Assembly: GCA_946537585.1 (NCBI GenBank)
Contig: CAMNFX010000026.1
Coordinates: forward strand, 1-10,813
DNA from: an uncultured Lachnospiraceae bacterium
GTDB lineage: Bacteria > Bacillota > Clostridia > Lachnospirales > Lachnospiraceae
Reading direction: 5' to 3'
DNA length: 10,813 bases
Numbering within the stretch: the first letter of the stretch is position 1; every line of letters starts with the position of its first letter. Below, piece by piece: positions 1-10,813 of this stretch. The translations under genes were made by a program, and so were the position numbers. The notes beneath the pieces are model-generated. The model was given only the letters and a program-made list of their open reading frames with translations. It had not been told where the DNA came from and did not search any database.

Positions 1-804
1 GCCAATCTGGATGTTGTCTTAAATTCCGCGGTTACAGTCGTAGACGCTAAAAAGTGCCGCATGTACATGAAGAACTTCGGTGAGTTCTTTAATAACCAGG
101 TACAGTATGCCGGAACGATCGTGCTCAGCCGTACGGACATTGTCGGTCAGGATGTGATCGATGCCGATGTGGAAATGATCCGCAGCTTAAATCCTGCAGC
201 GGAGATCGTGACGACTCCGGTCGCTGAATTGGGCGGCGCAAGACTTCTCGAGATCATCGAGAAACGTGATGATATGCTCGAGCAGATGCGTCTGGAGGCA
301 CTTTCCGAGCCTGACGGAGAATCTGAAGAAGAGCATATGGCACATCATCACCATCATCATGATGAGGATGAAGAGCATGAACATCATCATCACCACCATC
401 ATGACGAGGATGAGGAGGATGAGGAGCACGAGCATCATCACCACCATCATGACGAGGATGAGGAGGATGAGGAGGATGAGGAGCATGAGCATCATCACCA
501 CCATCATCACCATCACCATGGACATGATGCGGATGAGATCTTTGAATCCTTCGGATGGACCAATGTGCCTCCCATCTCCAGGGATAAGCTCGAAACTGCT
601 CTGCAGACACTTGCCAACGATGAACATGCCGTGATCCTTCGCTCCAAGGGCATGCTGAAGGCAGCGGATGCCGATGCCTGGTACTATTTTGATATGGTTC
701 CGGGAGAGTATGAGATCCGTGAGGGCGCTCCGGATTACACCGGAAAGGTCTGCGTGATCGGCAGTGAGCTCCGTGAGGATGACCTTAAGAAGCTTTTCTT
801 CTGA
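1..804 (+). CDS. CobW/COG0523 (G3E) GTPase, 5' partial, with His/acid metal-binding tract
   Basis: The reading frame is open from base 1 and ends at TGA 802-804, so 267 C-terminal residues are present and the P-loop and CxCC region lie upstream of the window. The first residues (VTVVDAKKC, then TIVLSRTD at about 117-140) fit the late G domain of COG0523 proteins; SRTD occupies the place of the guanine-specifying NKxD. Bases 343-525 encode 33 His and 27 Asp/Glu in alternating blocks. The last part (about 526-800: SFGW, VILRSKGML, WYYFDMVPG, VCVIGSELR) is a good CobW C-terminal domain. The family comprises GTP-driven metallochaperones or metal-insertion factors, and His-rich members usually handle zinc, cobalt or nickel. 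Zinc is my guess because the next gene has a YcgQ-like domain, and YcgQ belongs to the B. subtilis Zur regulon. It is cytoplasmic as far as can be seen. An internal ATG at 61 is not the true start, because conserved sequence continues upstream of it. Family call is firm; metal identity is inferred. Confidence 0.5.
   Translation, partial: ANLDVVLNSAVTVVDAKKCRMYMKNFGEFFNNQVQYAGTIVLSRTDIVGQDVIDADVEMIRSLNPAAEIVTTPVAELGGARLLEIIEKRDDMLEQMRLEALSEPDGESEEEHMAHHHHHHDEDEEHEHHHHHHHDEDEEDEEHEHHHHHHDEDEEDEEDEEHEHHHHHHHHHHGHDADEIFESFGWTNVPPISRDKLETALQTLANDEHAVILRSKGMLKAADADAWYYFDMVPGEYEIREGAPDYTGKVCVIGSELREDDLKKLFF
343..525 (+). repeat. His/acid staircase repeat inside the CobW-type gene
   Basis: Sixty-one codons encode only His, Asp, Glu and one Gly. 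Blocks of 6, 7, 6 and 10 His alternate with acidic blocks DEDEE, DEDEEDEE and DEDEEDEEDEE, each acidic block being followed by HE and the next His block. The acidic block thus grows by one DEE unit at each step. At DNA level, bases 385-426 and 433-474 are a perfect 42-base direct repeat at a 48-base period, and the first 18 bases recur at 490-507. The reading frame is kept throughout. This looks like expansion by slippage or unequal recombination under selection for a metal-binding tract. Confidence 0.5.
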
Positions 805-816
805 GGGACTTAAGTC

Positions 817-1779
817 ATGGCAGATACTATTCAGAACAATGAAATCCCGGTTTTCCTGATCAACGGATTTCTGGAGGCGGGAAAAACTTCCTTTATTGCA
901 TATACACTGGGAGAAGAATACTTCCATATTGACGGAAATACGCTGCTGATCGTCGGTGAAGAAGGTGAAACCGAGTATGATCCGAAGCTTCTGAAGCGGG
1001 AGAAGACGCATCTCGTCATTGTCGATGACCGTGAACAACTGACAAAGGAATACCTTGCCAGGCTGGGGGCCATGACCAGGGCTGAACGCGTGCTGATCGA
1101 ATACAACGGCATGTGGAGCGACCCCGGCCTTCTGGATCTTCCTGACAGCTGGGTCCTTTATCAGCAGATCACCGTAATGGACGGAAGCACGCTTGGAACC
1201 TATCTGACCAACATGCGCTCACTGATGGGACCTCTTCTTCGCAATTCAGAGCTTTGCATTGTAAACCGCTGTGACGGAAAAACCACTGACGAGCTGCAGG
1301 AATACAAGAAGCAGCTCCGTCCCATGCTGCTGAAGGGCTCCATGATCGTTATGGAGAACAAATACGGCGAGGTCCAGCTTGATACTCTGCCGGAAGATCT
1401 TCCGTATGATGTCAGTGGGGATACGGTCGTCCTGCAGCCGGAGGACTACGGGACCTGGTTTTTCGATGCCAAGGACTATCCCGACCGCTATATCGGCAAG
1501 ACGATTGAATTTACAGCAAGGATCATGAAATCCAAGCGGCTTGAAAAGGGTGTGTTTGTTCCCGGCCGCATGTCCATGACCTGCTGCGAGGCTGATATGA
1601 CCTTCCTGGGTTATCTTTCCTATTATAGGGAGCTGGACGCGTACAGTGACGGCGCCTGGGTACACCTCAAGGCAAAGTTTGAGCTCAGGAACAGAAAAGA
1701 ATACGAGGGCGAGGGACCATTTCTCATGGTTCAGTCCATGAGCCTGACCGGTCCGATCACAGAACCGGCCGGTTTCTGA
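817..1779 (+). CDS. G3E-type GTPase fused to a YcgQ/TIGR03943-like C-terminal domain
   Basis: This 320-residue protein has a clear Walker A (GFLEAGKTS, residues 17-25), a VIVDD strand near 67-71, IEYNG at 94-98 (matching the E-x-x-G stretch of CobW proteins) and NRCD at 150-153 as the guanine motif. The G-x-x-x-CxCC metal motif expected after Walker A in COG0523 is absent; GEEGETEYD stands there. Residues about 205-320 resemble the C-terminal part of YcgQ/TIGR03943: GKTIEF, then VFVPGRMSMTCCEAD (CC at 256-257), then WVHLKAKFEL. That region is an OB-like domain in a family encoded next to a YcgR-type permease and under Zur in B. subtilis. The ATG lies 12 bases after the upstream GTPase, with GAGGG at 803-807 overlapping its stop codon, so the two are surely cotranscribed. 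Likely role: nucleotide-dependent partner in metal trafficking. The domain reading is from memory of the families; function is inferred. Confidence 0.5.
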   Translation: MADTIQNNEIPVFLINGFLEAGKTSFIAYTLGEEYFHIDGNTLLIVGEEGETEYDPKLLKREKTHLVIVDDREQLTKEYLARLGAMTRAERVLIEYNGMWSDPGLLDLPDSWVLYQQITVMDGSTLGTYLTNMRSLMGPLLRNSELCIVNRCDGKTTDELQEYKKQLRPMLLKGSMIVMENKYGEVQLDTLPEDLPYDVSGDTVVLQPEDYGTWFFDAKDYPDRYIGKTIEFTARIMKSKRLEKGVFVPGRMSMTCCEADMTFLGYLSYYRELDAYSDGAWVHLKAKFELRNRKEYEGEGPFLMVQSMSLTGPITEPAGF

Positions 1780-1838
1780 GGCTCCCGGTCCTCATGTAAC
1801 TGCCGCCGGAACACCCTGATAAGTGAACTTTATTTGAT

Positions 1839-2537
1839 ATGTCGAAAAGAGCAGACTACAATATCATCGTAAAACCCGGCAGTTCTGATGTGGAAGTTAA
1901 GAAGTCCCACTTTATCACTTCCCTGAAATGCTGCAGAACAGAGGATGAAGCAAAAGCCTTCATAGAGGAGATACGAAGAGCCAACCGGGACGCCCGACAC
2001 AACTGCTTTGCCATGAGGATCGGCGATCCTTCCCGGATATTTGAGCGCTTCAGTGATGACGGCGAGCCGCAGGGAACTGCCGGCAAGCCCATGCTTGAAC
2101 TGCTGAAAGGGGCTCAGCTGACAGATGTCTGTGCTGTTGTGACGCGTTACTTTGGAGGCACCCTGCTTGGTACCGGCGGTCTTGTGCGGGCATATTCCGA
2201 CTCTCTGAAGGAAGCGCTTTTATCGACCGAAACGGCAGCATTGAACACCGGATACCGTATCGATGTGTGCTGTGACTACAGCACTGCCAACCGTCTGAAG
2301 CGTCTTGCTGCATCCATGGAGCTTTATACGATGGATGAAGTCTATGGCACCGGCTGCGAACTGATTTACCTCGTTCCTGAGGAACAGACGGACGGGTTTA
2401 TCCGGAAGATCACGGATGCAAGCTCCGGAAGTGCCCGTATAAAAACAGGCGAAAAGGTCCTTTATTACGGCACGGAAAAGCCGGCGGTTTATGCCGTATC
2501 TGAAGCTGAAAGCGATCCGCGGAAAGGAGCAACTTAA
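1839..2537 (+). CDS. yigZ: YigZ/IMPACT (UPF0029) family protein
   Basis: A 232-residue protein matching YigZ of E. coli and YvyE of B. subtilis in length and order. The N-terminal UPF0029 domain has RHNCFAMRIG (53-62), DDGEPQGTAGKP (73-84) and TRYFGGTLLGTGGLVRAY (102-119), the diagnostic signatures. The C-terminal DUF1949 domain covers about residues 136-210. The eukaryotic relative IMPACT modulates Gcn2. The bacterial role is unsettled, with ribosome or nucleic-acid binding suspected. The start fits the family N-terminus (VEVKKSHFI follows shortly), but no Shine-Dalgarno sequence is visible in the 59-base gap upstream, which is unlike the neighbouring genes. The stop codon TAA (2535-2537) overlaps the next ATG by one base, so the gene heads a coupled trio. 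Confidence 0.5.
   Translation: MSKRADYNIIVKPGSSDVEVKKSHFITSLKCCRTEDEAKAFIEEIRRANRDARHNCFAMRIGDPSRIFERFSDDGEPQGTAGKPMLELLKGAQLTDVCAVVTRYFGGTLLGTGGLVRAYSDSLKEALLSTETAALNTGYRIDVCCDYSTANRLKRLAASMELYTMDEVYGTGCELIYLVPEEQTDGFIRKITDASSGSARIKTGEKVLYYGTEKPAVYAVSEAESDPRKGAT
2523..2529 (+). promoter_or_regulatory. Ribosome binding site for the 73-residue ORF
   Basis: AAAGGAG lies inside the last codons of yigZ, seven bases before the ATG at 2537. It fixes that start and shows the overlapping TAATG arrangement is real. Confidence 0.5.
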
Positions 2538-2758
2538 TGATCAATTTTCAGGAAGAGATCAAGCGCTTTAAGCCATCCCTTGATGTGGATGATATTGAAG
2601 ATACGATCACGGGTATTGACCTCACCGATATGAATGATCTGATGCTGCAGATGGTGAAGGAGACCTCTGAGCGCAGCCGACGCGCAAACGCAAGGACGCC
2701 CGTTGTGGCGGAACATGAGGCATCCGGCCATCCTGCTGACGGATTTACGGAATTATGA
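2537..2758 (+). CDS. Small conserved-looking protein of unknown function (73 aa)
   Basis: I do not recognise a characterised family. The protein begins MINFQEEIKRFKPSLDVDD and continues with an acidic helical stretch (DIEDTITGIDLTDMNDLMLQMVKE, about residues 19-42, quoted here only by its limits and key LTDMNDLM core), then a basic patch (RSRRANAR, 46-53) and a loose tail. There is no signal peptide, membrane span or cysteine. It is tied to both neighbours: its ATG overlaps the yigZ stop by one base behind a good AAAGGAG, and its TGA (2756-2758) overlaps the start of the TPR gene as ATGA. I recall similar short proteins at this place in other Lachnospiraceae, which suggests a conserved partner of the TPR membrane protein, but this is memory and inference only. 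Confidence 0.5.
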   Translation: MINFQEEIKRFKPSLDVDDIEDTITGIDLTDMNDLMLQMVKETSERSRRANARTPVVAEHEASGHPADGFTEL

Positions 2759-4059
2759 TCTATCCTGCAGACCTGTCTAAAATAGCAAACGCATACTATA
2801 ACCGCGGTCTTGAACGGGCTCAGCTGCAGGACTTAAGCGGAGCTGCCATTTATCTGAAGGAGGCGCTCCGTTTTGACAAATACTGCACGGATGCGAGAAA
2901 TCTTCTGGGGCTGATCTTTTTTGAAATGGGTGAAACAGCCGCTGCGCTGGTGCAGTGGGTCATCAGCCTGAACCTTGACCCGGAGAACAATCCTGCCGAC
3001 AGGTATCTCGATGAGATCCAGAGGAAGCCGGCAGTTCTTTCCAATGCCGCTTCCACGATCAAACGCTTCAATCAGGCGCTGTTTCTTGCGCAGAACGGCC
3101 AGGAGGATTTTGCTGTAATCGAGCTGAGGGATATTGCCGGAAAGAATCCGAAGTATGTAAAAGCACAGCTTCTCCTTTCGATCCTGTATATGCAGAGCTC
3201 CGACAATGTCAAGGCCGGCCGGGCTCTGATGGAAGTCCTGAAGGTGGACCGCAACAATCCGCAGGCACTGGTGCTCATGGACGAAGTCAAAAAGCGAACC
3301 GGCCGTGCGGATATTGAGAAATCAAAGCTGGAAAATGCCTTTTCACACAGGCAGATGGAAGATGACGACGTTATACTGCCGAAAGCCAGAAGACAGGCGA
3401 CCGCCGAGCAGATCCTCCTCTATGTGATCGCCGGCATCGCAGTGGGACTCCTGAGCTTTTATCTGCTGATCCTTCCGACGATCCGCAAGGGATACCGGGA
3501 CGAACTGAACCGGAATCTGATCGACAACAGCCAGGAGCTTTCCTCGATCAATGCGGATTATACACGTCTGAAAGAAAACTTCGACAGCCTGCAGGCAGAG
3601 TATTTGGATGTCAGTCAGAAGCTGACCGCATATGAGGAGGAAAATGCCGCCTTCACCTCCATGTACGAGAAGCTGAACTCCATCATCGACGATTACAATG
3701 CCGGCGACATCGTGAGCGCCGTCAATTCCTATCTGGAGATCGACAGGGAACGTGCTTCCCAGGAGCCGCTTCTGGGACAGCTTCAGGAAGTTGACCGCCT
3801 GATCATCAACGACGGATTCAATACCATCCTGGAGACAGGAACGACTGAGTGGAACGCCGGAAAGGTCCAGGAGGCGGAGTATTATTATGACCTGGCGCTG
3901 AAGATCAAAAACGATGATCCTGAAGCAATGTATCTGATGGCGCGGCTGATGCAGTCGCAGGACCGTATAACGGAGGCAAACGCGCTGTTTGACCGTATTG
4001 TCGGCGAGCATCCCGAAAGCCGCTATGCGCAGCGAGCCATTGAAGCCAGAGGATATTGA
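2755..4059 (+). CDS. TPR-repeat membrane protein with central coiled coil
   Basis: A 434-residue protein of three parts. Residues 8-190 contain several TPR-like helix pairs (AYYNRGLERAQLQDLSGAA at about 13-31, NLLGLIFFEMGETAAAL at 49-65, and a further set at about 137-180). One hydrophobic span lies near 219-241 (core LLYVIAGIAVGLLSFYLLIL). A heptad-like stretch at about 250-310 follows, then a second TPR set at 350-430 (EWNAGKVQEAEYYYDLALKI, EANALFDRIVGEHPES). Such proteins act as scaffolds on either side of the membrane. Positive charges flank the span on both sides (KARR before, RKGYR after), so orientation cannot be called. Translation starts by ATGA overlap with the upstream gene and without a visible ribosome site, implying translational coupling. 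The ending EHPESRYAQRA resembles YbgF/CpoB-style TPR C-termini, but there is no other support for that identity. Confidence 0.5.
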   Translation: MIYPADLSKIANAYYNRGLERAQLQDLSGAAIYLKEALRFDKYCTDARNLLGLIFFEMGETAAALVQWVISLNLDPENNPADRYLDEIQRKPAVLSNAASTIKRFNQALFLAQNGQEDFAVIELRDIAGKNPKYVKAQLLLSILYMQSSDNVKAGRALMEVLKVDRNNPQALVLMDEVKKRTGRADIEKSKLENAFSHRQMEDDDVILPKARRQATAEQILLYVIAGIAVGLLSFYLLILPTIRKGYRDELNRNLIDNSQELSSINADYTRLKENFDSLQAEYLDVSQKLTAYEEENAAFTSMYEKLNSIIDDYNAGDIVSAVNSYLEIDRERASQEPLLGQLQEVDRLIINDGFNTILETGTTEWNAGKVQEAEYYYDLALKIKNDDPEAMYLMARLMQSQDRITEANALFDRIVGEHPESRYAQRAIEARGY

Positions 4060-4077
4060 TTATTCCTGTGATTTTTT
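4047..4077 (+). terminator. Possible weak intrinsic terminator after the TPR gene
   Basis: AGGATA (4050-4055) pairs with TATTCCT (4061-4067) with one bulged T, extended by two pairs at 4047-4048 and 4069-4070 beyond one mismatch, and is followed by six T at 4072-4077. The five-base loop 4056-4060 contains the stop codon TGA. The stem is short and only partly GC, so efficiency is doubtful, but its place before a 106-base gap fits a transcript end. Confidence 0.5.
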
Positions 4078-4113
4078 CGGAATCCCGGACATTATCCGTG
4101 CCGGAGATCCGTA

Positions 4114-4119
4114 TATAAA
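4114..4119 (+). promoter_or_regulatory. Candidate -10 element upstream of typA
   Basis: TATAAA within an AT-rich run (4112-4120) sits about 47 bases before the typA start. The best -35 position at 17-base spacing (4091-4096, ATTATC) is poor, so this is a weak suggestion, supported mainly by the possible terminator just upstream. Confidence 0.5.
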
Positions 4120-4127
4120 TGTATATC

Positions 4128-4150
4128 CTCCCGGGCTGTGATCGCGGGAG
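4128..4150 (+). other. Hairpin in the typA leader
   Basis: CTCCCG (4128-4133) and CGGGAG (4145-4150) form a perfect six-pair GC stem with an 11-base loop, 15 bases upstream of the typA ATG. No T run follows, so it is not a terminator. The right arm contains a GGGAG that resembles a ribosome site, but it is too far from the start to be the main one. It could influence translation of typA. The real ribosome site is probably the weak AGAGG at 4157-4161. Confidence 0.5.
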
Positions 4151-4165
4151 AAAGCAAGAGGTTAT

Positions 4166-6001
4166 ATGAGCGTACAGAAAAGAGAAGACATTCGAAACGT
4201 AGCAATTATCGCACATGTCGACCATGGCAAAACGACTCTGGTCGACGCCCTGCTTCATCAGAGCGGCGTGTTCCGTGACAATCAGGAGGTGGCGGAACGC
4301 GTAATGGATTCCAATGCCATCGAGCGTGAGCGTGGAATCACGATCCTGAGCAAGAATACCGCGATCAATTATAAGGGTCACAAGATCAATATCGTTGACA
4401 CTCCCGGTCATGCTGATTTCGGCGGAGAAGTCGAGCGTGTCTTAAAGATGGTCGACGGCGTTGTACTGCTGGTCGATGCATTTGAGGGTCCCATGCCTCA
4501 GACTAAATTTGTTCTCGGAAGAGCAATGGAGCTGGACCTTCCCGTCGTTGTCTGCGTCAACAAGATCGACCGTGACGGCGCCCGTCCGCAGGAGGTAGTG
4601 GACGAGGTCCTTGAGCTTCTCCTGGATCTCGGCGCATCCGACGAACAGATCGACTGTCCCTTTGTATTCGCCAGCGCAAGAGCCGGCGCATCATCCCTGG
4701 ATCCTGATGAGCCCGGGGTCAACATGCAGCCGCTCCTTGATACGATCATCGAGCATATTCCCTGTCCGGAGGGAGATCCGGATGCTCCGCTGCAGATGCT
4801 GGTCTCAACGATCGACTATAATGACTATGTCGGCAGGATCGGCGTCGGCAAGGTATCCAACGGCAAGATCAAAGTCAATCAGCAGGTTGTGCTTTGCAAC
4901 CATCATGACAGCAGCAAAATGGTCCGCACGAAGATCTCCAAGCTGTATGAATACAACGGACTTGCGCGCACGGAGGTCAACGAGGCCGGCATCGGTTCCA
5001 TCGTTGCGATCTCCGGCATACCCGAGATCCATATCGGAGATACGATCTGTGCCGCCGACCATGCATCGCCGATCCCGTTCCAGAAGATCTCGGAGCCCAC
5101 GATCGCAATGTATTTCATGGTCAATGACAGCCCGCTTGCAGGTACGGAAGGAAAGTACGTCACCTCCCGTCATATCCGGGACCGTCTGTTCCGTGAGCTG
5201 AATACCGACGTATCTCTTCGTGTGGAGGAAACCGAAAACGCGGACTGCTTCAAGGTCTCGGGACGCGGCGAGCTGCACTTAAGCGTCCTGATCGAAAACA
5301 TGAGAAGAGAAGGCTATGAGTTTGCGGTTTCCAAGGCTGAGGTCCTTTATAAGACGGATGAAAACGGAAAACGTCTTGAGCCTATGGAGACAGTCTATAT
5401 TGATGTGCCTGAGGAGTTTTCCGGAACGATCATCCAGAAGCTGACACAGAGAAAAGGCGAGCTGATCGGCATGACTCCCGTCGGCACAACAAATACGCGC
5501 CTGCAGTTTTCCATTCCGTCCCGCGGTCTGATCGGTTACCGGAATGAGTTCATGACCGACACAAAGGGCAACGGTATCATGAATACTGCTTTTGACTGCT
5601 ATGGTCCCTATAAGGGAGATTTAAGCTATCGGCCGACCGGGTCGATCATCGCGTGCGAGGCAGGCGAAGCGATCACTTACGGACTGTTCAACGCGCAGGA
5701 AAGAGGCACCCTGTTCATCGGTCCCGGCACAAAGGTATATAATGGCATGGTCGTGGGCCAGTCTCCCAAGACAGAGGATGTCGAGATCAATGTTTGCAAG
5801 ACAAAGAAGCTGACCAACACGCGTGCTTCCGGTTCCGATGAGGCGCTGCACCTGACGCCTCCCAGGATCATGTCTCTTGAGCAGTGCATGGACTTCATCG
5901 ATACGGATGAACTTTTAGAGGTCACGCCGAAGTCTCTCAGGATCCGAAAGAAGATCCTGGACCCGCTGCTCCGCAAGAGGGCATCTTTCAAAAAGGGCTG
6001 A
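4166..6001 (+). CDS. typA: Ribosome-associated translational GTPase TypA/BipA
   Basis: The 611-residue length and whole-length pattern are those of TypA/BipA. G-domain motifs are complete: AHVDHGKTT (16-24), RGIT (56-59) for switch I, DTPGH (78-82), NKID (132-135) and ASARAG (169-174). They are followed by the EF-G-like domains II, III and V and the BipA-specific C-terminal domain (GLIGYRNEFMTDTKGNG and the LTPPRIMSLEQCMDFI segment). TypA binds the 70S ribosome and supports late 50S assembly and growth at low temperature or under stress. The start gives the standard N-terminus IRNVAIIAHVDHGKT. It follows a 106-base gap holding a possible terminator, a weak -10 and a hairpin, and sits 40 bases before nadE. 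No unusual residues seen. Confidence 0.5.
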   Translation: MSVQKREDIRNVAIIAHVDHGKTTLVDALLHQSGVFRDNQEVAERVMDSNAIERERGITILSKNTAINYKGHKINIVDTPGHADFGGEVERVLKMVDGVVLLVDAFEGPMPQTKFVLGRAMELDLPVVVCVNKIDRDGARPQEVVDEVLELLLDLGASDEQIDCPFVFASARAGASSLDPDEPGVNMQPLLDTIIEHIPCPEGDPDAPLQMLVSTIDYNDYVGRIGVGKVSNGKIKVNQQVVLCNHHDSSKMVRTKISKLYEYNGLARTEVNEAGIGSIVAISGIPEIHIGDTICAADHASPIPFQKISEPTIAMYFMVNDSPLAGTEGKYVTSRHIRDRLFRELNTDVSLRVEETENADCFKVSGRGELHLSVLIENMRREGYEFAVSKAEVLYKTDENGKRLEPMETVYIDVPEEFSGTIIQKLTQRKGELIGMTPVGTTNTRLQFSIPSRGLIGYRNEFMTDTKGNGIMNTAFDCYGPYKGDLSYRPTGSIIACEAGEAITYGLFNAQERGTLFIGPGTKVYNGMVVGQSPKTEDVEINVCKTKKLTNTRASGSDEALHLTPPRIMSLEQCMDFIDTDELLEVTPKSLRIRKKILDPLLRKRASFKKG

Positions 6002-6028
6002 AACATTCCGAATTGCTGCGGTTTTTAC

Positions 6029-6034
6029 AGGAGG
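6029..6034 (+). promoter_or_regulatory. Consensus ribosome binding site of nadE
   Basis: A perfect AGGAGG lies seven bases before the ATG at 6042, fixing the start. It is the strongest Shine-Dalgarno match in the window. Confidence 0.5.
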
Positions 6035-6041
6035 AAGGCTT

Positions 6042-8234
6042 ATGTTTAACGGATTTATTAAAACTGCTGCAGTCACCCCCAGGATGATCGTAGGAGACGT
6101 TGACTATAATGTCTCGGAGATCATCGACAATATGTACAAGGCTTCCGATGAGGGCGTGAGGATCCTTGTCTTTCCGGAGCTCTGCATCACCGGTTCCACC
6201 TGCGGGGATCTCTTCCGGCAGGATCGTCTGATCGAAGCTGCCCAGTATGGCCTGCAGGACATTCTGGATGCCAGCACGGACCTGGATATGCTGGTCTTCG
6301 TCGGACTGCCATGGCGTAAGGACGGAAAGCTTTATAACGTGACTGCTGCTGTCAAGAGCGGCACACTGCTTGGTCTCGTTCCAAAGGTCTATCCGGAAAC
6401 AAGCCTTGATTCTGATGAATGCCGCTGGTTTGAAAGCGGACAGGAGGTTCCGGAGCTGATCACTACGGAACTGATGTACGGTATCGGTCCCGTTTTTGAC
6501 GATGACGACGATGATGACGATGAGGGTTCCGGTCCCGTGCTTGTAGAGGATGAGGACAATGAGCTTTCCGATGATCCTCTTGAGATCGATCCGGAATACT
6601 TCAAGGACTGGAAGGATGTCTCCGACTTCGATGATGATGACGACGATGACGACGACTACGATGATGATGATGATGACGATGATGACGACGATGACGACGA
6701 TCCCGGTTTTGAACAGATCGAAGTCTCATTCGGACACAATCTGATCTTCGAATGCACGGACGCCGAAGGTCTGGCGATCGCAGTCATGTCCGGAGACGAA
6801 TACAAAATGGCGTTTTCTCCTGCGGCATCGATGGCATCGGCCGGCGCATGCATTATTGTCAATCCGTGTGCCCACATTGCGGAAGCAGGGTGTATGAAAG
6901 AGGCGGAAAACGATCTGGAGCTCGCTTCAAGACAGCTTTTCTGCGCCATTATCAGAGCCGGTGCCGGCACCGATGAGTCCACCACGGACTTTGTGTATGA
7001 CGGATGCCGTCATATCGTTGAAAACGGCGAGACGATTGCCTCGGCAAAGGCGCTTACAAACGGCATGCTCATCACCGACATTCATTATGCGGCTCTGGAT
7101 GCGCTCCGGAGAAACAGCCGGGTCTTTGCTCCCCTGGATGAGGCGGAGGCTGATGTCTGTTATGATTATATCGGGTTTATGTACTCTGATCTGTCCGGTG
7201 CTCCCCTCGGCAGAAAGATCGAAACCAATCCTTTTGTTCCGAAATCACGCACGAAAAGCATCTGCAGGGATGTATTCGACATCCAGGCAGCGGCCCTTGC
7301 CAGACGCATGCGTCATACCGGTTCCCGAAAAATGGTCCTCGGGCTTTCGGGCGGACTGGATTCTGCCCAGGCGCTTCTTGTCTGTACTCAGACTGCAAAG
7401 CTGCTTGGCCTTCCTTCTTCCTCCGTGCTCTGCCTTTCAATGCCTGCGTTCGGCACCTCCGAAAGGACACATGATAACTCGGCGGCCCTTGCCAAAGCGC
7501 TTGGAGCGGATTTCCGTGAGATCGATCTGAAAGCAAGCCTTTTGCAGCACTTTGCGGATATCGGCCATCCTGTCGATGTACACGATGCGGCGTATGAAAA
7601 TGCGCAGGCACGTGAGCGCACGCAGATCCTCATGGACATTGCCAACATGGAAAACGGCATAGTTGTCGGAACAGGAGACATGTCCGAGGCGGCACTGGGA
7701 TGGTGTACCTATAACGGAGACCAGATGTCCATGTACAACGTCAACGCCGGTGTGCCGAAGTCGGTGATCCGGCTTACGGTCCGATACGCGGCGGACACAG
7801 CCGATGATCCGCAGCTTCGGGATATACTTACAGATATCCTGGACACTCCGGTATCTCCCGAGCTTCTTCCGGCCGGATCTGACGGAGAGATCTCCCAGGT
7901 CACGGAGGACCTGGTCGGACCGTATGAACTGCATGATTTCTTCCTCTATTACATGCTGAAATACGGATTTGCTCCGGACAGGCTCGCCTGGCTTGCCGAG
8001 CAGGCCTTTGCCGGAAAATACAGCCGCAAAGAGATCCTGCACTGGCTCATGATTTTCAGCAAACGCTTTTTTGCTTCACAGTTCAAACGAAGCTGTGCTG
8101 TGGACGCACCGAAGGTATTCGATATCTCCTTAAGCCCGCGCGGCGGTCTGAATATGCCGTCGGACGCATCCTCGATCCTCTGGACGCGTGATCTTGAGAT
8201 CCTTTCCATGATCGAAGAGCAATACGGAGAATAA
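6042..8234 (+). CDS. nadE: NAD+ synthetase, glutamine-type architecture with a degenerate, Asp-expanded nitrilase domain
   Basis: A 730-residue protein with the two-domain layout of glutamine-dependent NAD+ synthetase, which amidates deamido-NAD+ using ATP. The C-terminal synthetase domain looks intact: LGLSGGLDS (433-441, PP-loop), FGTSERT (470-476), ENAQARERTQILMDIAN (519-535), GTGDMSEAALGW (543-554), YNVNAGVPK (565-573), DTPVSPELLP (601-610) and ELHDFFLYYML (629-639). The N-terminal nitrilase domain keeps Glu46 (FPELCITG) and Lys115 (VPKVYP) of the catalytic triad, but the third motif, ICEDLW in the family, reads MSGDEYK at 249-255 with Gly251 where the nucleophilic Cys should be. The PNYSEFYE-like and NxSAS-like segments are altered too. 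About 70 acidic residues (152-221) with Asp runs of 8, 9 and 14 are inserted, against a family length of about 630-660. It probably uses free ammonia or a partner. Synthetase call is firm; loss of glutaminase activity is inferred. Confidence 0.5.
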   Translation: MFNGFIKTAAVTPRMIVGDVDYNVSEIIDNMYKASDEGVRILVFPELCITGSTCGDLFRQDRLIEAAQYGLQDILDASTDLDMLVFVGLPWRKDGKLYNVTAAVKSGTLLGLVPKVYPETSLDSDECRWFESGQEVPELITTELMYGIGPVFDDDDDDDDEGSGPVLVEDEDNELSDDPLEIDPEYFKDWKDVSDFDDDDDDDDDYDDDDDDDDDDDDDDPGFEQIEVSFGHNLIFECTDAEGLAIAVMSGDEYKMAFSPAASMASAGACIIVNPCAHIAEAGCMKEAENDLELASRQLFCAIIRAGAGTDESTTDFVYDGCRHIVENGETIASAKALTNGMLITDIHYAALDALRRNSRVFAPLDEAEADVCYDYIGFMYSDLSGAPLGRKIETNPFVPKSRTKSICRDVFDIQAAALARRMRHTGSRKMVLGLSGGLDSAQALLVCTQTAKLLGLPSSSVLCLSMPAFGTSERTHDNSAALAKALGADFREIDLKASLLQHFADIGHPVDVHDAAYENAQARERTQILMDIANMENGIVVGTGDMSEAALGWCTYNGDQMSMYNVNAGVPKSVIRLTVRYAADTADDPQLRDILTDILDTPVSPELLPAGSDGEISQVTEDLVGPYELHDFFLYYMLKYGFAPDRLAWLAEQAFAGKYSRKEILHWLMIFSKRFFASQFKRSCAVDAPKVFDISLSPRGGLNMPSDASSILWTRDLEILSMIEEQYGE
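6495..6704 (+). repeat. Poly-Asp low-complexity insertion in nadE
   Basis: Residues 152-221 include Asp runs of 8 (6498-6521), 9 (6630-6656) and 14 (6660-6701), the last two separated by a single Tyr codon. Between them lies an acidic but more complex spacer (EDEDNELSDDPLEIDPEYF). Codons are mixed GAT and GAC, so this is not a pure triplet repeat. It falls between the Lys motif and the place of the missing Cys in the nitrilase domain, just before FGHNLIFEC. Confidence 0.5.
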
Positions 8235-8254
8235 TAAATATAGGACTGTTAAAG

Positions 8255-9082
8255 GTGGACGGACGGAAACGCAAGTTTATACTTGAATTGCAGAAAAAAT
8301 CCCGGCTCCGGCGGGAGTCGGGACTGTATGTCATAGACGGTCCCAAAATGGCAAAGGAAGTGCCGTCTGAGATCGTTGAGGAGATCTGTGTAACAAAGGA
8401 GTTTATGAGCTCCGTCCACATGGCGGAATGCTCACAGCTTCTTAAGGAGGCCGGATTTACTGTCATCAGTGAATCCGAAATGCGCCAGATATCGGATACA
8501 GTTTCCCCGCAGGGAATTCTTATTGTGGCTCGTCAGAACAGGATCCGCGGTCTTAAGGAACTCCTTTCATCCGGCGGAACGCCCCTTCTGCTGATTCTGG
8601 AGACTATCCAGGACCCCGGGAATCTCGGCACGATCTTAAGAGCCTCGGAAGCCGCAGGCGTCACCGGCGTGATCATGGACAGGGAAACCGTGGATGTTTA
8701 TTCACCGAAGGTCGTCCGTTCGACGATGGGTGCGATACTGAGGGTTCCCTTCCTGTGTGTGGAGGATCTCGTGAAAGCGGCTGTCACGCTGAAGGAGGGC
8801 GGCATTCCCGGACAGCCTTCCGTGACTCTTTACGCTGCACATCTTCTGGGGGCGGCAGATTACACCGAAGTAAGCTACCGCGGTCCGTCTGCAGTAATGA
8901 TCGGAAATGAGTCAAAAGGCCTCAGCGATACTCTGGCCTCTCTGGCTGACCGCCGCATCCTGATCCCGATGTGCGGACATGTGGAATCACTGAATGCTGC
9001 AATGGCAGCCGCCGTCATTTCCTTTGAGGCGGCAAGACAGCGCAGGGGAACCGGAATTTTGACAGAAAAACAGGAACTGTGA
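8255..9082 (+). CDS. SpoU/TrmH-family RNA 2'-O-ribose methyltransferase
   Basis: A 275-residue SPOUT methylase that uses S-adenosylmethionine to methylate a ribose 2'-OH in rRNA or tRNA. The N-terminal substrate-binding domain spans about 1-100 (YVIDGPKM at 25-32, SDTVSPQGILIVA at 80-92). The SpoU knot carries motif 1 ILETIQDPGNLGTILRASEAAG (ending at 135, with Asn123 and Arg129), motif 2 MIGNESKGLS (215-224, Glu219) and motif 3 IPMCGHVESLNAAMAAAV (about 237-254, with Ser245 and Asn247). Overall it is closest in style to the TsnR/RlmB-like 23S rRNA enzymes often misnamed TrmH; the exact target cannot be read from sequence. The start is GTG at 8255, the only start codon near the N-terminus, with AGGA at 8242-8245 nine bases upstream. 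Only 20 bases separate it from nadE, so cotranscription is likely. Confidence 0.5.
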   Translation: MDGRKRKFILELQKKSRLRRESGLYVIDGPKMAKEVPSEIVEEICVTKEFMSSVHMAECSQLLKEAGFTVISESEMRQISDTVSPQGILIVARQNRIRGLKELLSSGGTPLLLILETIQDPGNLGTILRASEAAGVTGVIMDRETVDVYSPKVVRSTMGAILRVPFLCVEDLVKAAVTLKEGGIPGQPSVTLYAAHLLGAADYTEVSYRGPSAVMIGNESKGLSDTLASLADRRILIPMCGHVESLNAAMAAAVISFEAARQRRGTGILTEKQEL

Positions 9083-9088
9083 TATAAT
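9059..9088 (+). promoter_or_regulatory. Strong SigA promoter, consensus -35 and extended -10
   Basis: TTGACA (9059-9064) and TATAAT (9083-9088) are both perfect, 18 bases apart, with TG at 9080-9081 making an extended -10 (TGATATAAT). Transcription should start near 9095. The -35 and spacer lie within the last codons of the methylase gene, and the TG is part of its TGA stop codon (9080-9082). It would drive the small membrane protein gene and rpoD. Confidence 0.5.
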
Positions 9089-9119
9089 AATTATTTAAGC
9101 CCGTTAATTCAGGCATGAC

Positions 9120-9140
9120 CCGCAGTATGATGAGCTGCGG
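9120..9140 (+). other. Leader hairpin ahead of the small membrane protein gene
   Basis: CCGCAG (9120-9125) and CTGCGG (9135-9140) form a perfect six-pair stem with a nine-base loop, a few bases before the ribosome site at 9147-9151. No T run follows. It may protect the transcript end or tune translation. Confidence 0.5.
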
Positions 9141-9156
9141 CCCGAAAGGAGAACAC

Positions 9157-9465
9157 ATGGCCCCCAAGCGTAGCTACTCACCGAGAAAGCTCGGCACCAT
9201 GCTTGACACAGCACATATCGTGATCGGTCTGGCAGTGGTGATCATGGCTTTCTTTGCGGTGCTGGAGCCCATGAAATATATGTTTCTATTCCCTGTGATC
9301 TTCCTGCTGGCTGCAGTACTGACTCTGATTACTTCATGGTTTATGTTTACCGCGTTTAAACGTAATTCACGAAAAAAGATCGCAGGCATCATCTATCTGA
9401 TCACGGGACTTCTGCTCATGGGCCTTTTTGTGATCAGCGGGATCTCCATCTGGATCCGCGGCTGA
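9157..9465 (+). CDS. Small three-span membrane protein of unknown function (102 aa)
   Basis: The protein starts with a basic tail ([13 protein letters not shown]) and has three hydrophobic segments: about residues 20-36 ([17 protein letters not shown]), 41-66 ([20 protein letters not shown] and beyond) and 76-100 ([20 protein letters not shown]). A basic loop KRNSRKK joins the last two, and the end is WIRG. The positive tail and loop put the N-terminus and the second loop on the cytoplasmic side. I chose ATG 9157 because AGGAG (9147-9151) lies five bases before it; the in-frame ATG at 9115 has no ribosome site and sits in the leader next to a hairpin. It is the first gene after the strong promoter and precedes rpoD by 61 bases. 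I do not recognise a family with confidence. Confidence 0.5.
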
Positions 9466-9468
9466 TCA
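9431..9468 (+). other. Long imperfect hairpin across the stop codon, upstream of rpoD
   Basis: TGATCAGC (9431-9438) pairs perfectly with GCTGATCA (9461-9468); inside a 1x3 internal loop, GGATC (9440-9444) pairs with GATCC (9453-9457) around an eight-base loop. Thirteen pairs are possible. The TGA stop of the membrane protein gene (9463-9465) is in the right arm. Only a broken T stretch (TTCAGTTTTG) follows, so it could be a leaky terminator, an attenuator setting the rpoD share of transcription, or an RNase processing barrier. Confidence 0.5.
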
Positions 9469-9511
9469 TTCAGTTTTGAGAGCGGTATGTCTGAAGCGAA
9501 GCATTTGCAGG

Positions 9512-9519
9512 AAAGGTGG
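9512..9519 (+). promoter_or_regulatory. Ribosome binding site deciding the rpoD start
   Basis: AAAGGTGG lies seven bases before GTG 9527, favouring that codon over the in-frame TTG at 9476, which has no ribosome site and would add 17 residues unlike the family. Confidence 0.5.
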
Positions 9520-9526
9520 AAGTGAA

Positions 9527-10717
9527 GTGGATAAAGACAAGCTTCTGGAAAAAGTCAGCAAACTTGCGGAAAATGCAAAAAATGCTCATAACACGCTGAG
9601 CTATGAGGAAATCGGAGAGGCATTCAAGGAAGACGATCTCAATGCCGATCAGATGGATAAGCTCTATGCGCTCATTGAGTCAAAAGGCATTGATATCGTC
9701 AATTCCGACAAGGATACGGACGACGAGCCGATCCCTGATGACGGTTTCGCAAATCTCGATCTGAATAAACTCGATAATGTTGACGACGTGCTCGGCGACG
9801 AACTTGATGATGATTATTCGGATGAATTTTCCGAAAAAGAGATCGATGACAATGTGGATCTCGATGCCGTTGACCTTTTAGAGGGTGTCGGTACAGACGA
9901 CCCTGTCCGCATGTATCTGAAAGAGATCGGCACGGTGCCGCTGCTTTCCGCGGATGAAGAGATCGAACTTGCAAAGCGCAAGGCCGACGGCGATGAGGCT
10001 GCAAAGGAGCGTCTGATCGAGGCAAACCTTCGTCTGGTCGTCAGTATCGCAAAACGCTATACAGGCCGCGGCATGAGCTTTCTTGATCTTGTCCAGGAGG
10101 GAAATCTCGGCCTGATCAAGGGTGTTGAAAAGTTCGACTATACCAAGGGCTATAAGCTTTCCACCTATGCAACCTGGTGGATCCGTCAGTCCGTGACCAG
10201 AGCGCTTGCGGATCAGGCACGTACCATCCGTGTGCCGGTACACATGGTCGAAACGATCAATAAGATGTCCAAGATGCAGAGAAAGCTCACGCTGGAGCTC
10301 GGTTATGAGCCCAGTATTCCGGAGCTGGCAAAGGCACTGGATATGTCAGAGGAAAAGGTCATGGAGATCATGCAGATCGCCCGTGAGCCTGCCTCCCTGG
10401 AGACCCCGATCGGTGAGGAAGATGATTCCAACCTCGGCGATTTCGTCGCCGACTCCAATGTGGTCACCCCTGAGCAGAACGTGGAATCCGTGATGCTCAG
10501 AGAACACATCGACACGCTTCTCGGAGACCTCAAGGAAAGAGAGCGGCAGGTCATCGTCCTTCGTTTCGGCCTCGAGGACGGCCATCCGCGTACGCTGGAG
10601 GAAGTCGGCAAGGAATTCAATGTTACGCGCGAGCGAATCCGCCAGATCGAAGCAAAGGCGCTTCGCAAGCTCCGCAATCCGGTGCGCTCGAAGCGGATAC
10701 GCGATTTCCTGCAGTAA
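9527..10717 (+). CDS. rpoD: Primary (housekeeping) sigma factor RpoD/SigA
   Basis: With GTG 9527 as start the protein has 396 residues, a typical size for Firmicutes SigA. Residues 2-60 form region 1.1. Residues 61-121 are an Asp-rich linker ([12 protein letters not shown]). [21 protein letters not shown] (from about 125) is region 1.2. Region 2 contains [17 protein letters not shown] and [20 protein letters not shown], responsible for -10 recognition and melting. Region 3 runs from [11 protein letters not shown] to about 310. Region 4 ends with [15 protein letters not shown], the helix-turn-helix [28 protein letters not shown], which binds the -35, and KRIRDFLQ (long stretches are named here by their limits and core residues). 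It directs RNA polymerase to promoters of the TTGACA/TATAAT kind, such as the one at 9059-9088 that appears to drive this gene. The usual partner dnaG is not immediately upstream; a small membrane protein gene is there instead. Confidence 0.5.
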
Positions 10718-10813
10718 ATGATATACCTAAGTTTATATCCATGTATGTGTCCGACAATGCTTCGGCACTTCGACTTGGAAATGCTGCGCCGCCTATGAGG
10801 GGCTGCCTGCGCA
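10718..10813 (+). other. Intergenic DNA after rpoD with hairpin potential; possible dispersed repeat
   Basis: No gene with a ribosome site is seen in these 96 bases. GTG-T-CCGA (10747-10754) can pair with TCGG-CAC (10762-10768) with one bulge, and TGCGC and GCC in the last 30 bases can pair with GGC and GCGCA at the very end. The reverse strand gives an open frame containing RSAEALSDTYMDI, which I recall meeting in spurious short ORFs of Lachnospiraceae genomes. That suggests a dispersed intergenic element rather than a gene. The rpoD terminator may be part of this or lie beyond the window. Confidence 0.5.

Follow-up and report, generated by a model that had tools for sequence, protein, structure and literature searches.

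Can a nicotinamide adenine dinucleotide (NAD) synthetase of the glutamine-dependent kind do without the cysteine nucleophile of its glutaminase domain, and if so, from where would it draw its nitrogen? This question is raised by a stretch of 10,813 nucleotides from an uncultured Lachnospiraceae bacterium (assembly GCA_946537585.1, contig CAMNFX010000026.1, positions 1 to 10,813 of the forward strand; hereafter the window), which carries nadE, a gene for a long two-domain NAD synthetase of 730 amino acids plus stop codon (6042..8234, + strand, as are all features below). Very probably, judging from sequence comparison, the encoded enzyme descends from glutamine-dependent two-domain synthetases, has lost glutamine hydrolysis and would use free ammonia, with the dead nitrilase domain serving as a folded core of the oligomer. 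In such an active enzyme, the synthetase domain would adenylate nicotinic acid adenine dinucleotide and amidate it with free ammonia, and the nitrilase domain, minus its nucleophile and glutamine-binding loop, would be kept for assembly as the core of an octamer. A high-ammonia habitat of these lineages may have removed the need for glutamine. Long NadE enzymes can use free ammonia, as stated in an excerpt of PMC6946656. The initial annotation had proposed that the enzyme accepts ammonia only and that its glutaminase part is a pseudo-domain, and this proposal is supported by the alignment, by a cysteine (Cys) loss that is inherited clade-wide and recurs elsewhere, by the loss of the glutamine loop, by the retained synthetase residues and by the frequent lack of a second clear NAD synthase.

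The glutaminase-like domain is split into a first half (residues 1-148, 6042..6485; PF00795 at residues 8-135, and the structural model) and a second half (residues 223-391, 6708..7214; alignment to Mycobacterium tuberculosis NadE, with nitrilase-fold matches reaching residues 359-373). As reference we used wild-type M. tuberculosis NadE (PDB 3dla), with a HMMER alignment covering residues 226-717 of the window protein. In this alignment, LAIAVMSGDEYKMAFSP of the window NadE pairs without gaps with FVLHVEICEDMFVPMPP of the M. tuberculosis enzyme; because no gap lies nearby, Gly251 (codon GGA, 6792..6794) occupies the place of Cys176, and the glutamine-dependent type's nucleophile is missing. 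The stretch between C238 and C270 is free of Cys. Both observations agree with the initial annotation, as does the presence of the other two catalytic residues of the glutamine-dependent type, Glu46 (6177..6179) and Lys115 (6384..6386), which align with Glu52 and Lys121. The YRE loop, which according to part of PMC6946656 binds glutamine and couples both active sites of NadE, is replaced by SLDSDE (residues 121-126, 6402..6419, by residue mapping), where the last Glu alone survives of six places. The annotated change of the FYE-like segment to ETSLDSDE is correct, but its residues are 119-126 rather than 118-125; the change of the NxSAS-like segment near the old pocket to NPCAH (residues 274-278, 6861..6875) was placed correctly.

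Retention of the synthetase motifs was likewise borne out: the synthetase domain (residues 398-730, 7233..8231; PF02540 at residues 418-577) carries SGGLDS at 436-441 and Asp560, and the protein scores 671.6 bits against the long NAD synthetase model NF002730 (cut-off 473). Window NadE has the two-domain fold of the solved long member, and its nitrilase-fold domain (PF00795, fold matches) sets it apart from single-domain synthetases. A sequencing error or a local frameshift, the latter already judged unlikely on first inspection, is a poor explanation of Gly251: the alignment is free of gaps, protein P0002 (92% identical, of equal length and from a contig of different length) carries the same Gly, and so do five related genomes (G003, G004, G005, G006 and G010); the suggested check for the same substitution in close relatives thus came out positive.

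The pattern runs through clade A, for which the residues named in an excerpt of PMC6946656 were mapped over 13 rows, some of them near-duplicates. In all 13, Cys176 is replaced by Gly and Tyr58 by Ala or Ser, Glu52 and Lys121 are retained, Tyr127, Phe130 and Tyr131 of the YRE loop are lost, and the Phe/Trp180 place holds Lys, Arg or Met; Asp497, the last ammonia-transfer residue, is retained in 13/13 rows and Lys644 in 9/13. A wider table holds 31 Cys-less rows (13 of clade A, 8 of clade B and 10 others) and leaves out the strongly eroded loci L155, L157, L172, L182 and L296. Here the Glu52 counterpart is Glu in 31/31 rows, the position of Lys121 holds Lys in 28 rows and Arg in the other 3, and the counterpart of Asp497 (Asp560 in the window protein) is retained in 31/31 Cys-less and 199/199 Cys-bearing rows. 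Among the eroded loci, L155 and L182 have lost both Glu and Lys, and L157 and L296 have lost Lys; L155 is scored as Cys-less from the sequence context around a misaligned stretch, and L172 and L182 are too eroded in this region for their aligned residues (Ala and Met) to be sure. Joint loss of Cys and loop was examined by an independent-pairs test, which had just five pairs on starred branches, too few for significance.

Two other readings of the altered pocket bear on these residues. The dead site might have become an entrance for ammonia or ammonium, where the change of Cys to Gly and of Tyr58 to Ala/Ser would widen constriction 1 and the Glu-Lys pair would help convert ammonium to ammonia at the old tunnel mouth. 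The constancy of Glu52, Lys or Arg121 and Asp497 over the 31 rows and of the Tyr58 change over clade A fits such an entrance, and an alternative ammonia path has been proposed in carbamoyl-phosphate synthetase I (CPS1), according to part of PMC4655335. However, in clade B the nucleophile position is taken by Trp or Phe in 4/8 rows and Tyr58 persists in 8/8, the five eroded rows, some of which have lost Glu or Lys, stand outside the table, and the pair is perhaps kept for folding only; we consider the entrance improbable. Similarly doubtful is the broader proposal that in clostridial NAD synthetases the glutaminase domain has repeatedly become an ammonium port that lacks catalytic activity and doubles as the core for assembly. 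Such enzymes would form a third architecture, intermediate between those that use glutamine and those with a single domain, and would be recognizable by the missing Cys and glutamine loop and, in less eroded lineages, by a kept Glu-Lys pair. Alternatively, glutaminase activity could persist through a relocated nucleophile, Cys276, which lies near the old pocket, aligns with Ser201 and had gone unmentioned in the initial annotation, as had the acidic insert described below. This position is Cys in 8/13 clade-A rows and in 2/10 other Cys-less rows (the L059/P0013 pair), but it is Ala or Ser in the remaining 5/13 and Cys in 0/8 clade-B rows, and the glutamine-binding loop is lost; such a relocation is extremely improbable.

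How widespread are Cys-less enzymes? In the genus, 22 of 25 genomes (the window's own included) match the window protein, two of these with the short type only. Long NadE occurs in 20 genomes, being Cys-less in 9 (own included) and Cys-bearing in 11; G007, G008, G009, G013 and G022 hold only a short single-domain NadE. Across the family, 347 of 397 genomes match at an E-value of 1e-30. From other genera, a non-random set of 118 loci was read (28 that scored best outside the genus, 60 others that were picked, and the top 30 among 34 genomes with low scores), giving 107 with the Cys motif, 3 unreadable there and 8 without Cys (L040, L059, L155, L157, L172, L182, L195 and L220). A GTDB scan, read for the best 80 loci among the matches listed, gave 79 Cys-bearing loci and 1 Cys-less locus (L110, named RUG11623, a prefix that we take to stand for rumen). 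DNA pattern searches returned only G079, G198 and G244, already known as Cys-less, from the 397 family genomes; among 391 class genomes, they revealed a NadE without Cys in G467 and G790, which belong to two other families. Of 41 pattern-matched loci read, five lie in NadE (L264, L271, L274, L284 and L293) and most in other proteins. At L284 (G467), the Cys-less NadE is interrupted by an in-frame stop where the YRE loop used to be, with the rest open; this stop is either real or an assembly error. Of three class-level comparison genomes, G430 and G774 are Cys-less and G756 is Cys-bearing. Protein searches, in which the best 120 of about 6,000-8,000 matches were considered, yielded 14 Cys-less rows out of 121 (the window protein itself counted), then 5 of 80 new rows (P0122-P0126) and 5 of 120 (P0202, P0203, P0204, P0260 and P0282, the N-terminal part of P0203 not aligning). 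P0014 and P0202 are named glutamine-hydrolysing in their source records, yet both lack the Cys. Loss of the whole domain, considered for L156, L164 and L169, was rejected: the L156 gene lies in two overlapping frames, and the L164 and L169 matches run to the end of the DNA.

It appears from sequence that the same switch took place independently several times among related bacteria. A synthetase-domain tree of 63 rows requires five changes of the Cys label (bootstrap range 5-6), at least three of them forced by starred branches, and a quick tree of 77 rows, built without bootstrap, requires eight, at least five forced on starred branches. These trees count changes and not their direction; we read the changes as losses because most relatives read, as well as the solved wild-type enzymes, carry the Cys. 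A single origin of all Cys-less enzymes is rejected, weakly by the approximately unbiased test alone (p = 0.0394, 16 rows), and 0/200 bootstrap trees show one origin. Joining clades A and B is not rejected (p = 0.454), so some groups, these two for example, may share one loss. A first tree of 97 rows (10 changes, 2 forced) was left unused, as L156, L164 and L169 had been mistaken for Cys-less and L155 for Cys-bearing.

Alternatively, the long NadE could be a decaying gene, rendered redundant by a short NadE. A PF02540 search found no second clear NAD synthase, that is, no other protein above 45 bits, in 13 Cys-less genomes at least 90% complete (G010, G023, G077, G244, G079, G198, G349, G234, G238, G467, G790, G430 and G774); the next best protein in these reaches 43.5 bits (G349), and seven short NadE proteins score 152-220. 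Clade-A genomes G004 and G006 do have a short NadE in addition to the long one, which could therefore be redundant there, and decay is suggested by the heavy erosion of L157, L172 and L182 and by the stop in G467. Against this, the 13 genomes, including those of L157 and L172, have no clear NAD synthase besides the long NadE, many synthetase columns are invariant across 30 rows, clade A included, and the ratio omega of nonsynonymous (dN) to synonymous (dS) substitution rates is far below 1, so that a decaying gene is very unlikely. A further observation concerns G014, which has a second long NadE (L025), with its Cys motif intact and on a separate tree branch, and also a third PF02540 protein of 312 amino acids that scores 140 bits.

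The dead glutaminase domain is most likely held under purifying selection, as suggested by omega values (Nei-Gojobori) that are rough because most dS exceed 1 and most pairs approach saturation at synonymous sites. In four clade-A pairs, the dead domain has an omega of 0.073-0.105 over its first half, compared with 0.037-0.147 over the synthetase domain; for the second half, one pair gives 0.070 and the other three are saturated. Constraint is weaker in clade B (0.20-0.32 in the dead domain versus 0.09-0.12). In Cys-bearing pairs, domain omega is 0.03-0.12 and second-half dN 0.6 to 3.7 times synthetase dN. Several findings weigh against an ammonia-using enzyme whose dead domain is kept for assembly. 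Second-half dN in clade A is about 1.8 to 2.9 times synthetase dN, decay is advanced in L157, L172, L182 and L296, G467 has its in-frame stop, and the catalytic Glu and Lys are conserved more tightly than would seem necessary for a pure scaffold. To these are added the short NadE of G004 and G006, the window's own genome, which is just 59% complete, and NadD, which is over its cut-off in 19/20 genomes and falls short of it in G006. AmtB was found in 1/20 genomes only (Cys-less G238), with all 14 controls detected; as genomes with and without the Cys both lack it, it is uninformative as a sign of ammonia adaptation.

Ammonia might also be delivered by a separate glutaminase subunit, as the initial annotation had suggested alternatively; Thermus has such a NadE, composed of two subunits. 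A stand-alone G-subunit is known (PMC3376133, in part), and further PF00795 proteins are present in 8 of the 13 Cys-less genomes searched. However, the remaining five (G000, G002, G016, G077 and G079; 59-95% complete) contain no other PF00795 protein, partners of other families not having been searched for, which weakens the idea; none of the eight other window open reading frames scanned matches an amidotransferase family, and the kept domain would, judging from its fold, occupy the docking place. We regard a feeding subunit as very improbable. A second amidotransferase without its own glutaminase is present in G000: a stand-alone guanosine monophosphate (GMP) synthase ATP-pyrophosphatase of 331 amino acids (L304; contig 118, 3395-4387), which covers positions 187-512 of 512 of NF000848 and for which a separate subunit was not searched for. 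Similar proteins (L305-L309), 70-88% identical, occur in G006, G008, G009, G010 and G013, and G003, G004 and G005 carry long frames (516-545 amino acids) that begin with a GATase-like part.

The acidic poly-Asp insert (residues 149-222, 6486..6707) lies inside the glutaminase domain and is predicted to be disordered, with predicted local distance difference test scores below 50 throughout. Acid-rich inserts occur at the same loop in the Cys-bearing L034 (poly-Asp), L061, L068, L130, P0010 and P0017; the segment at this place is short in the clade-B genomes and in P0013, as well as in clade-A P0009, where it is also weakly acidic, and the long inserts do not include those of L040, L059, L195 and L220. 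The insert was therefore rejected as a cause or mark of Cys loss, being present in Cys-bearing relatives and short in several Cys-less enzymes.

Upstream, nadE is preceded by a GGAGGA (6030-6035) and by typA/bipA (4166..6001; PF21018, PF00009), and downstream it is followed by a SpoU-family RNA methyltransferase gene (8255..9082; PF00588). Both neighbors recur in G003, G004, G005, G006 and G010 (in G005 on two contigs), and the methyltransferase adjoins nadE at the examined clade A and B loci and at three Cys-bearing genus loci. Elsewhere in the window, a CobW-family protein (1-804, open at the window start) has its GTPase and CobW_C domains separated by a long His/Asp/Glu-rich tract that may be a metal-binding loop, and adjoins a second CobW-like GTPase fused to a DUF1980 C-terminal domain (817-1779).

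Among known systems, the octameric glutamine-dependent two-domain NadE (M. tuberculosis, PDB 3dla/3syt; type F in an excerpt of PMC3376133) differs from the window enzyme by having the Cys and the YRE loop and by lacking the long acidic insert of its clade. Single-domain, ammonia-dependent synthetases (type N) would share free ammonia as nitrogen source, but the window protein still has its nitrilase domain in full, as well as the C-terminal part of the long type. The Thermus enzyme (type C) also links a synthetase to a nitrilase-type glutaminase, which there is a separate, working subunit. The nearest parallel is vertebrate CPS1, which keeps an inactive glutaminase-like domain with its Cys replaced and uses free ammonia, as window NadE would; in human CPS1, Ser294 replaces the catalytic Cys (PMC4655335, in part). 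CPS1 differs in glutaminase class (a Cys-His-Glu triad) and reaction, and has been studied biochemically, whereas window NadE is known from sequence. Fish CPS III is said to shift convergently toward ammonia with its triad retained (PMC7657897, in part). The portion of PMC3376133 consulted distinguishes four kinds of NAD synthetase (fused, clustered, remote and none), notes that the fused ones characterized by then use glutamine, regards glutamine use as marked by the two-component architecture with its interface elements, and poses the in vivo nitrogen donor of single-domain enzymes as a question. A fused NadE with a dead glutaminase is outside these four kinds as given there, and we found no description of one in the open-access PMC literature searched, which mostly does not cover subscription papers.

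Cys-less long NadE enzymes thus present natural experiments on the nitrogen donor of NAD synthesis, and they allow one to ask why a dead domain is retained. Since the nucleophile appears to have been lost several times, and since many of the genomes hold no other clear NAD synthase, it becomes testable whether such Clostridia may supply their NAD from ammonia alone.
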